Shown one piece after another: positions 39,355 to 45,745 of a stretch of 64,000 nt of DNA. Made by a program: the position numbers and the translations under genes. The notes under the pieces are model-generated. The model made no database searches. It was not told where the DNA came from and saw only the letters and a program-made list of their open reading frames with translations. Every line of letters begins with the position of its first letter. The stretch's first letter is position 1. The DNA is from Halobacterium jilantaiense (GTDB lineage Archaea; Halobacteriota; Halobacteria; Halobacteriales; Halobacteriaceae): the NCBI RefSeq assembly GCF_900110535.1, contig NZ_FOJA01000001.1, positions 1,709,393 through 1,773,392 of the forward strand, read 5' to 3'.

Positions 39355-39456
39355 CGCGCCGGGGTTCGAAGCGACCCGGCAAGTGTCTGGCGGCACGGTG
39401 CGGTCCGCGTCGCTCGGGCACGCTCCTGAAGTACGTCCCGCCCCTACAGATTGCCA

Positions 39457-41523
<2,067 letters not shown>

Positions 41524-43199: not shown

Positions 43200-44044
43200 G
43201 CACGCTCACCGTCGCCCGCGACGACTTCACGAACGCCCGCCGGTCGTACGCCGTGCTCGGCGTCGTCGGCGTCTTCTCCGTACTCGTTGCGCTGCTCTTC
43301 GCTGCCAACAGCAGCAACCACCAGTTCGCGTTCCGGACGCTGTTCGACGTCTCCTTCCTCGTGTTCCTCCTGTTGCCCATCATCCTCGCGCCGCTGACGT
43401 ACCTCGCCATTGCGGGTGACCTCGACGGCGGCGCAATCAAGTACGTGATGGGGTTGCCGAACACGCGGTCCCAGTACGTCTTCGGGAAGCTGCTCTCCCG
43501 GCTGAGCGTCGGGCTGGCGGCCGTCGTCATCGGGACCGTCGCCGGCTTCGCCATCGCACTCGTCACCTACTCGAACGCCCCGGAAGTAGTCCGCTTCGCG
43601 GAGTTCGCGGCGGTCACGCTGCTGTTCGCGTTCTCGTGGGTGGGCATCTACGTCGGCGTGTCCGCGCTGACCGACAGCCGGTCCCGGGCGATGCTCGGCG
43701 CGTTCGTCGCGTACTTCGTGCTGGTCCCGTTCTGGTTCGGGTTCCTGCCGGTCGTCAGCCTCCTCGACCTCCTCGGGTCGATTACCGACGTACTCGGTGT
43801 CACCCTCTCGCAGGACACCCAGTCGCTGATTCAGGCTCTGTCGCCCGCGACAGCGTACCTCCGCAGCACCGAAATCATCTACACGGGGGTTGTCTCCGGC
43901 CACGAACGCATCGCACAGACCTTCTCCGGGCAGAGCACCAAAATCTACGCGAAAGTCTGGTTCAACGCCCTCGTGATGCTCGGATGGGGGGTCATTTCGA
44001 TGGTCGTCGGCTACGCCTCCTTCCGCCGGTCGGAGCTCGGCTGA
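43196..44044 (+). CDS. ABC-2 type transporter permease (pair 1)
   Basis: A 282-residue membrane protein with six helices, starting with the cytoplasmic STLTVARDDFTNARRSYAVL typical of NosY/ABC-2 permeases. It has the conserved GAIKYVMGLPNTRSQYVFGK coupling loop after helix 2. The later loop VTLSQDTQSLIQALSPATAY is extracellular. It forms a transporter with the ATPase encoded directly before it (GTGA overlap). A similar phrase (SAKFLLSLPHTRRDTVVGKV) in the permease at 50928 shows that the pairs are related. Confidence 0.85.
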   Translation: MSTLTVARDDFTNARRSYAVLGVVGVFSVLVALLFAANSSNHQFAFRTLFDVSFLVFLLLPIILAPLTYLAIAGDLDGGAIKYVMGLPNTRSQYVFGKLLSRLSVGLAAVVIGTVAGFAIALVTYSNAPEVVRFAEFAAVTLLFAFSWVGIYVGVSALTDSRSRAMLGAFVAYFVLVPFWFGFLPVVSLLDLLGSITDVLGVTLSQDTQSLIQALSPATAYLRSTEIIYTGVVSGHERIAQTFSGQSTKIYAKVWFNALVMLGWGVISMVVGYASFRRSELG

Positions 44045-44149
44045 CTCGATACCGGCCCGCTGACGCCGGCAACCAGTAGTCTTCGCCGCTATCGGCGGCA
44101 GAGAAACCAACTCTTTTCCGCGGCCGGACAGATAGCCGCCGGCACTACG

Positions 44150-44230
44150 ATGACGAGTGCAACCGCGAGCGAGCGTCGCTACCCCGGACACCCGATTCAG
44201 CCGCCCACAGCGGAGGGGTCCGCGGCGTGA
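44150..44230 (+). CDS. Short upstream ORF overlapping the TauE gene start
   Basis: ATG at 44150 opens 26 residues (MTSATASERRYPGHPIQPPT and a short rest), ending in a TGA that overlaps the GTG of the next gene (GTGA). A TATA-like CTCTTTTCC lies about 35 bp before it, so this ATG rather than the GTG would be near the transcript start. It may be a leader whose translation brings ribosomes to the GTG. The peptide shows no domain. Confidence 0.35.
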   Translation: MTSATASERRYPGHPIQPPTAEGSAA

Positions 44231-45309
44231 CCGACGCGCCCTCCGGCCGGCAGCGAGCCACGAAGCTCTTTCTGAAGTACCAGCACGTCTTCGTCTTCCT
44301 CGCACCCGTGCTGTTCGTGGCGTTCGTCTTCTTCGGGCCGCTGGCACCCAGCGACCCGGCACCCGGCTACTGGACGAACTACTGGTGGCTGTTCCCCGTC
44401 TTCATCACGGGCGCGACCATCGTCAACACCGTCGGCATCAGCGGGTCGGCGCTGTTCGTGCCGTTCCTCATCTTCGTGTTCCCGCTGTTCGCGGAGCCGC
44501 TGGAGGCCGAGACGCTCGTGAAAATCGGGCTCATCAGCGAGTCCTTCGGCCTGTCCAGTTCCGCCATCGCGTTCGTCCAGTACGGGCTCGTCGACCGCAG
44601 GCTCGCGCTGTCGCTGGTGGCCGGCGGGCTGCCGTTCGTCGTCGGCGGCGCGCTGCTGTCCTTCGTCATTCCCGAGCCCGTGTTCCACGCGCTGCTCGGG
44701 CTCGCCCTGCTCGCGGCCTCCTACCTCCTGTTCAAGGCCGACCTCGGGCACGGCGACACGGCCGACAGCGACGACGACCGGCCGGCGGCGGCCGACGGCG
44801 GCTCGAACCTCCCCGACGACCCCGGGAAGCTCGGGCCGGCCGGCGTGCGGGTCGACGACGGCGTCGTCACCCGAGTCGCTCGCGACGGCGACACCTACGA
44901 GTACGACCGCAGCGGCTACCTCAAGCGGTTCGCGAACTACAGCGTCGGCGGCACCTTCCAGGGGCTGGCCGGGTTCGGCATCGGCGAACTCGGTATCATC
45001 TCGATGCTGTCCTCGAAGATTCCCGTCCGGGTCGCCATCGGCACGAACCACATCGTCGTCGCGAGCACCGCCATCATCGCGTCGCTCGTCCACGTCTTCG
45101 GCGGCGGGCTGGTCGGCGGGCACTCGATGGACCTCGCGACGACGCCGTGGAACATGGTCGTCTGGACGGTGCCGGCGACGGTCACCGGCGGCCAGATTGC
45201 GCCGTACGTCTCCGCCGCGCTGGACACGGAGACAATCAAACAGGGCGTCGGCGCGCTGTTCGCCGTCATCTCCGTGGCGCTGTTCCTGATGGCTTCGGGG
45301 GGTGTCTGA
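44227..45309 (+). CDS. TauE/SafE family sulfite/anion exporter
   Basis: A 360-residue membrane protein with about eight helices. The TauE/SafE features are the two similar halves with GISGSALFVPFLIFVFPLF in the first and GGTFQGLAGFGIGELGIISM in the second. A cytoplasmic acidic loop (about 178-235, with DSDDDRPAAADG) separates them. Members export sulfite, sulfoacetate or related anions. The GTG at 44227 (MTDAPSGRQRATKLFLKY) is consistent with a short cytoplasmic start. A universal stress protein gene begins one base after its stop, and the pairing is common in haloarchaea. Confidence 0.85.
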   Translation: MTDAPSGRQRATKLFLKYQHVFVFLAPVLFVAFVFFGPLAPSDPAPGYWTNYWWLFPVFITGATIVNTVGISGSALFVPFLIFVFPLFAEPLEAETLVKIGLISESFGLSSSAIAFVQYGLVDRRLALSLVAGGLPFVVGGALLSFVIPEPVFHALLGLALLAASYLLFKADLGHGDTADSDDDRPAAADGGSNLPDDPGKLGPAGVRVDDGVVTRVARDGDTYEYDRSGYLKRFANYSVGGTFQGLAGFGIGELGIISMLSSKIPVRVAIGTNHIVVASTAIIASLVHVFGGGLVGGHSMDLATTPWNMVVWTVPATVTGGQIAPYVSAALDTETIKQGVGALFAVISVALFLMASGGV

Positions 45310-45310
45310 C

Positions 45311-45745
45311 GTGTACGAGACGATTCTGCTCCCGACCGACGGCAGCGAAGGGACGGCCGCGGCGGCCGAACACGCCGGCACGATTGCAGCGCAGTTCGAC
45401 GCGACCGTCCACGTCGTCTCGGTGGCCGACGAACGCAACCGCTTCGAGTCGCCGAGCGCCGGGCTCGCCGGCGAGGCGTGGGACGAACGGGAGCGCGAGC
45501 GCGCCGAGGCGACGACCCGCGAGACGGCGGCTGCGCTCCCCGACGAGGTGTCCGTCGAGACCGCCGTCGTCGACGGCATTCCGCACGAGGCCATCGTCGA
45601 GTACGCCGAATCGGCGGGCGTCGACGTGGTCGTGATGGGGACCCACGGCCGCACCGGGCTGGACCACTATCTGGTCGGCAGCGTCGCGGAGAAGGTCGTC
45701 CGGACGTCGCCCGTCCCGGTGTTGACGGTGGGACTGGACGACTGA
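45311..45745 (+). CDS. Universal stress protein (UspA family)
   Basis: A 144-residue Usp domain: YETILLPTDGSEGTAAAAEH at the start, VVDGIPHEAIVEYAES in the middle, and the ATP-binding signature MGTHGRTGLDHYLVGSVAEK followed by SPVPVLTV. The G-2x-G-9x-G(S) pattern means it probably binds ATP. I prefer the GTG at 45311 (MYETILLP), one base after the TauE stop; a GTG at 45302 would overlap by 8 bp. Coupling with TauE suggests that it regulates or senses the state of that exporter (inference). Confidence 0.85.
   Translation: MYETILLPTDGSEGTAAAAEHAGTIAAQFDATVHVVSVADERNRFESPSAGLAGEAWDERERERAEATTRETAAALPDEVSVETAVVDGIPHEAIVEYAESAGVDVVVMGTHGRTGLDHYLVGSVAEKVVRTSPVPVLTVGLDD

Follow-up and report, generated by a model that had tools for sequence, protein, structure and literature searches.

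A conserved short leader ORF precedes TauE exporter genes in haloarchaea and may tune exporter synthesis through its nascent peptide

Results

A short ORF overlaps the start codon of tauE

The window analysed here, a 64,000-nt stretch of the 2.95 Mb genome of Halobacterium jilantaiense, carries a gene for a TauE/SafE family exporter that is preceded by a very short ORF. The features of the locus are the following.

44103..44117, + strand: promoter-like element, with GAAAC (BRE-like) at 44103-44107 and TTTT (TATA-like) at 44114-44117
44150..44230, + strand: leader ORF, MTSATASERRYPGHPIQPPTAEGSAA, with ATG at 44150, 26 codons and stop TGA at 44228-44230; homologues in five other Halobacterium and seven Halorussus genomes
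44183..44206, + strand: core PGHPIQPP, leader codons 12-19, conserved as peptide
44212..44216, + strand: GGAGG, Shine-Dalgarno (SD) motif of tauE, within the last codons of the leader and 10 nt from the GTG
44227..45309, + strand: tauE, 360 aa, TauE/SafE family exporter, GTG start
45302..45745, + strand: uspA-like gene (Usp, PF00582); GTG 45302 overlaps the tauE stop, or GTG 45311 adjoins it

TauE was assigned by its match to PF01925 (E 1.9e-25; 90.4 bits against a curated cut-off of 32.6). The original prediction had placed an ATG frame of 26 residues at 44150-44230, before tauE, and had its stop overlapping the GTG of the exporter gene. Both elements were confirmed in the sequence: the leader TGA overlaps GTG 44227 as GTGA (a -4 overlap), and all six Halobacterium loci keep the junction, as either GTGA or TGACGTG. 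Apart from this GTG, no in-frame start was found before the conserved part of tauE at the window locus. On the 5′ side, the gene of an ABC-2 transporter component ends at 44044 and a uvrB-like ORF (39451-41523) ends ∼2.6 kb from the leader. On the 3′ side, the tauE/Usp junction at 45302-45311 (GTGTCTGACGTG) displays the same TGACGTG as the leader/tauE junction of other Halobacterium genomes. The transcript likely includes the uspA-like gene as its third ORF, and the leader, tauE and Usp ORFs may form a single coupled chain.

The frequency of this architecture was evaluated in a 464-kb sample of the genome, made up of the window and twenty 20-kb stretches, in which 241 predicted genes had free DNA 5′ of them. 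A coupled ATG ORF of 20-30 codons preceded six of the 241 genes; three of these also showed a TATA-like box and two, tauE among them, an SD as well. The bare architecture is thus uncommon, not unique, in this genome. It is conservation across relatives that places the arrangement above chance and rules out a chance ORF.

The promoter-like element lies at a near-leaderless distance from the leader ATG

The first T of the TTTT element is located 36 nt 5′ of the leader ATG and 113 nt 5′ of the tauE GTG. The distance from the first T to the ATG is 32-35 nt for the five remaining Halobacterium leaders, the spacing in the window being a few nt longer, and an AAC..CTTTTC stretch could be aligned in 6/6 Halobacterium loci. 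The excerpts of PMC4983044 used here give TTWT and CGAAA as the haloarchaeal TATA and BRE consensus sequences, apply the term leaderless to 0-5 nt and describe 72% of H. volcanii protein-coding transcripts as leaderless. Because the spacing between box and ATG is near, and slightly above, that expected for a leader of 0-5 nt, 'leaderless or nearly so' is a fair description of the predicted leader mRNA, with a putative transcript start placed by this spacing. A bacterial promoter scan, a method unsuited to archaea, gave no match.

The leader is conserved in Halobacterium and Halorussus

The tauE gene was present in 6 of 13 Halobacterium genomes. The same six carry a GHPIQPP pattern, once each, and the pattern was absent from the seven Halobacterium genomes that lack tauE (7/7). 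The leaders of the five other Halobacterium genomes are MSTVAATERSRPGHPIQPPTAEGSAA, MLSPFASGRSHPGHPIQPPTRGVH, MMSQSVSGRVQPGHPIQPPTRGAS, MYSADALGRSSPGHPIQPPKRGAS and MTPHVASGRTHPGHPIQPPTRGVH. When 392 genomes of the order were searched with the GHPIQPP pattern, 11 matched, compared to one with the reversed control; the five matches outside Halobacterium were all in Halorussus, in a short ATG ORF 5′ of a TauE gene. A profile built from the 11 peptides produced 13 matches in the 392 genomes at E ≤ 1.3e-7, with the next at 1.6e-3, and added two Halorussus leaders with cores PGHPIEPP and PGHPLQAS. The core PGHPIQPP is identical in 11 of the 13 leaders, and a TauE gene lies 3′ of the leader in all 13 strong matches.

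An orthologue of tauE was found in 128 of the 392 genomes, and 13 have a second TauE that resembles it only distantly. Either TauE occurs in 7 of 18 Halorussus genomes, and all seven have the leader. At the four Halorussus loci of the second TauE, the paralogue, the leader TAG directly abuts the ATG of the gene (TAGATG, 4/4); at the three loci of the tauE orthologue in this genus, 117-192 nt separate the leader stop from tauE, with another ORF in between. A coupled short ATG leader precedes 12 of the 13 genes of the paralogue set, and at the remaining locus (L220) one was seen, by eye, only with a GTG start allowed. The tails of the remaining leaders in Halobacterium and Halorussus likewise contain SD-like motifs. 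In Halorussus and genus g31 the second TauE gene adjoins what, by eye, resembles uvrB (upstream ends of L213, L215, L216 and L219).

We considered whether the short ORF could be a frameshifted N-terminus of TauE and rejected this, since the leaders of all 13 relatives keep their own stop and are not in frame with TauE. Matches to the peptide pattern outside the haloarchaea (34 of 37 stretches) mostly belonged to long reading frames or to frames in which the part seen showed no ATG 5′ of the match, and were taken as chance, as were two loose-pattern matches (L080, L083) located within the frames of ordinary genes. Judged by its conservation in sequence, the leader ORF is real and represents a conserved family of leader ORFs associated with TauE genes.

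The core of the leader is constrained as a peptide

Across the 13 leaders, codons 12-19 gave a pS of 0.53, a pN of 0.035 and a pN/pS of 0.07, a ratio to which none of 2000 column shuffles fell, versus a pN/pS of 0.86 for codons 2-11, with 254 of 2000 shuffles as low; these shuffle counts ignore the relatedness of the leaders. Discovery of the cores through a codon pattern could bias such a codon test, and searches with TauE alone recovered the same 13 loci. For codons 9-20 the ratio was 0.26 in the annotated frame and 1.5 and 4.2 in the other two. The six Halobacterium cores showed zero nonsynonymous changes (6/2000 shuffles as low), and all four of the 24 DNA columns that vary among them are third positions. 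In the Halorussus cores, variation affects seven of eight third positions, four of eight first positions and none of the eight second positions. No match to the leader was found in Pfam, NCBIfam or Rfam. An RNA switch or known RNA family was also considered and found no support: the consensus fold was weak (-12.4 kcal/mol; 2/13 pairs compensated; single-sequence z -1.07) and Rfam gave no match.

A wider class of leader ORFs precedes tauE across the order

We scanned 128 of the 129 tauE orthologue loci (G251, whose tauE is partial, was left out and G321, where the match starts late, was retained) for upstream ORFs (uORFs) of 18-36 codons with an ATG or GTG start, a TATA-like box 25-39 nt 5′, an SD in the tail and a start codon at the stop. 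Such a uORF was present at 47 of the 128 loci, compared to 0.7 on average and never more than 3 in 30 dinucleotide-shuffled sets. The criteria of the scan were drawn up once examples were known, and some of these uORFs (e.g. L018, L019, L021) are weak cases. By genus labels and hand tabulation, the 47 loci span 19 genera and seven families. Many of the uORFs are 23-24 codons long, and 27 of the 47 end in GG[FILV][TSA], an ending that appeared 0 times in the shuffles. By the scan used, 81 of the 128 loci lack such a uORF; TauE genes in general can therefore do without the leader.

Of the 47 uORF loci, one has a TATA-like box spaced as for a leaderless tauE transcript, versus 49 of the 81 others (p 1.6e-12, a value that ignores kinship between genomes). 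This comparison agrees with the original prediction that the leader ATG, and not the tauE GTG, lies at the leaderless distance from the TATA-like element, a box at the tauE distance being missing from 46 of the 47 uORF loci. It also indicates, at the level of sequence, that two layouts exist: a leaderless tauE, or a leader ORF in the promoter-proximal place with tauE following it.

Many leaders of this wider class (e.g. MTRSPSFDRPASQIRFNPATGGIT) have the same length and tail and lack PGHPIQPP, the core differing between genera, so that passive delivery of ribosomes to tauE could suffice in them. In genus g52, 12 of 12 tauE loci have a leader that starts with GTG and ends in HxVHx..P(N/K)GGIT; these 12 leaders (nine distinct, with core GHxVHH) gave a ratio of 0.37, with 1 of 2000 shuffles as low. 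At two loci of genus g2 (L011, L014), a 30-codon leader before tauE has a different conserved end, PSRREVFT followed by TAGATG. A tail pattern combining the SD with TAGATG matched 13 of 263 genomes, compared to one for the reversed control, and 11 of the 13 matches lay just 5′ of a TauE gene, which makes this tail near-specific for TauE leaders in these genomes. The other two (L255, L260) precede other genes without a proper leader and were taken as chance. At L039 and L096 the gene 5′ of the leader resembles, by eye, a multi-helix permease of the metal-exporter type, a possible hint to the role of the exporter.

Several genera have a second short ORF that begins at or beside the leader stop and ends anywhere from ∼21 nt 5′ of tauE to 4 nt inside it. 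At the g52 loci (L114-L139), the stretch from ∼230 to 14 nt 5′ of tauE holds an ORF of 64-65 codons (e.g. MVRGFEHSVLDSSGDHRTP...) that begins at the stop of the GTG-started leader; these ORFs end 13-17 nt before tauE and are alike in sequence. According to the excerpts of PMC12548453 used here, coupling in H. volcanii is little or none beyond about 30 nt; the 117-192 nt gap at the Halorussus orthologue loci would thus be too far for direct coupling, and a second ORF would have to bridge it.

Discussion

A proposed model for the control of tauE by its leader

We propose that the promoter places the transcript start on the ATG of a leader of 24-26 codons, or no more than a few bases away, and that the ribosome would enter the leader and not tauE; in the window, entry would take place at 44150. 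With an SD in the leader tail and a leader stop that overlaps or abuts the start codon, tauE would then be translated by termination-reinitiation. The core is located 21-44 nt before the tauE start, its end being separated from that start by 20 nt, and a ribosome footprint measures about 28 nt, so that a ribosome held on the core prolines would cover the SD, and its slowing there would block or delay reinitiation. Because the core is proline-rich and constrained, we infer that the peptide could hold the ribosome; the nascent chain would act in cis and tune exporter synthesis.

The leader and tauE resemble known coupled pairs in that stop and start overlap, or lie within a few nt, and the end of the upstream ORF contains an SD, which is helpful and not essential. 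In the excerpts of PMC6728339 used here, 9 of 9 tested H. volcanii gene pairs were strictly coupled by termination-reinitiation, the SD was non-functional for de novo initiation in haloarchaeal 5′-UTRs, and its contribution to reinitiation differed by gene pair. Coupling of tauE to its leader by reinitiation is highly probable, and it fits these published results. Control of exporter synthesis by translation of the leader is plausible, given the peptide-level conservation of the core.

A leader ORF that merely brings ribosomes to tauE by termination-reinitiation, with an irrelevant peptide sequence, would be in line with the observation that the most widely common features are the SD and the stop/start junction while the middle of the leader varies between genera. 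Strict coupling with no known peptide role occurs in H. volcanii (excerpts of PMC6728339), and delivery ORFs of this kind are mentioned in the part of the review PMC12548453 used here. Arguments against such a leader are a pN/pS of 0.07 in the core compared to 0.86 in the codons before it, the presence of one core before two distantly alike TauE genes in two families, and peptide-level constraint in a second set of leaders (g52), and we consider this explanation unlikely. The same selection on the core, together with the finding that the strong matches stand before TauE genes only (13/13), could instead reflect a functional microprotein, for instance a small protein that partners the TauE transporter and whose synthesis keeps pace with it through coupling. 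Against this, the kept residues amount to only ∼8 of 24-26 and include no hydrophobic stretch, Pfam and NCBIfam contain no match, and the ORF was missing, by the scan used, from 81 of 128 orthologue loci; we regard a microprotein as improbable.

The near identity of the core as DNA in the six Halobacterium loci, where only 4 of 24 columns vary, would also be expected of a conserved DNA or RNA element, either a regulator site or a structure, that happens to be open in frame. The four variable columns are all third positions, however, and the Halorussus cores vary at third (7/8) and first (4/8) positions and at no second position; the other two frames showed no constraint, the consensus fold was weak (z -1.07) and Rfam gave no match, which renders a by-product ORF very improbable. 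On balance, a regulatory nascent peptide appears to be the best single account of the constraint on the core. The reading towards which we lean is that ribosomes reach tauE by way of a leaderless leader ORF, the conserved core of which probably tunes exporter synthesis via the nascent peptide. More tentatively, the tauE leader might be the first member seen of a family of archaeal leader peptides that act in cis. Leaderless ORFs of 24-26 codons would encode them, and the nascent chain, with PGHPIQPP in Halobacterium and Halorussus or GHxVHH in g52, would sense the substrate of the exporter or translation stress and gate TauE reinitiation across haloarchaea, in some lineages via a cascade of two short ORFs.

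Comparison with known systems

The conserved peptide and its spread beyond the source genome are what this analysis adds to the original prediction. In the open-access literature, among titles and the openings of abstracts, we found no TauE leader peptide and no conserved archaeal leader-peptide family. Long structured 5′-UTRs are scarce in haloarchaea (excerpts of PMC4983044); if the model is true, these organisms would nevertheless control translation via a nascent chain and reinitiation. With one promoter, 26 codons and one exporter, the tauE leader is a compact testable system, and it would offer a handle on the cargo of these putative TauE exporters.

The locus resembles the coupled pairs of H. 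volcanii (Huber et al. 2019; excerpts of PMC6728339) in its NTGA overlap or very short spacing, in the SD within the upstream ORF and in its haloarchaeal host. It differs in that the upstream partner is an ordinary gene in the H. volcanii pairs, whereas that of tauE is a leader of 24-26 codons with a conserved core that apparently starts a leaderless transcript. The uORFs that dRNA-Seq revealed in H. volcanii 5′-UTRs, as given in the excerpts of PMC4983044, are similar in length (15-31 residues) and in their position before normal-sized genes, several of them transporters. Those 16 uORFs come from the transcript maps of one species, are located in 5′-UTRs of 150-250 nt and are not reported as coupled in these excerpts, whereas the tauE leader lies at the likely transcript start and abuts its gene.

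Among bacteria, a Mg2+ transporter is reportedly controlled through a small ORF, and the tauE leader is likewise a short ORF before a membrane transporter. Leader-peptide control has been described mainly in bacteria, with arrest or leader peptides of the MgtL, TnaC and SecM type, some of which are proline-rich or prone to stalling. In arrest peptides the nascent chain stalls the ribosome, often on a signal, and in many of these systems, not all, alternative mRNA structures are tied to the stall. The tauE leader has in common with them that it is a short ORF before a gene and conserved as a peptide. In contrast to the bacterial systems, which have leadered mRNAs and often an RNA switch, the tauE leader is archaeal, would be entered by ribosomes on a leaderless transcript and is a candidate for stalling and for sensing a ligand.
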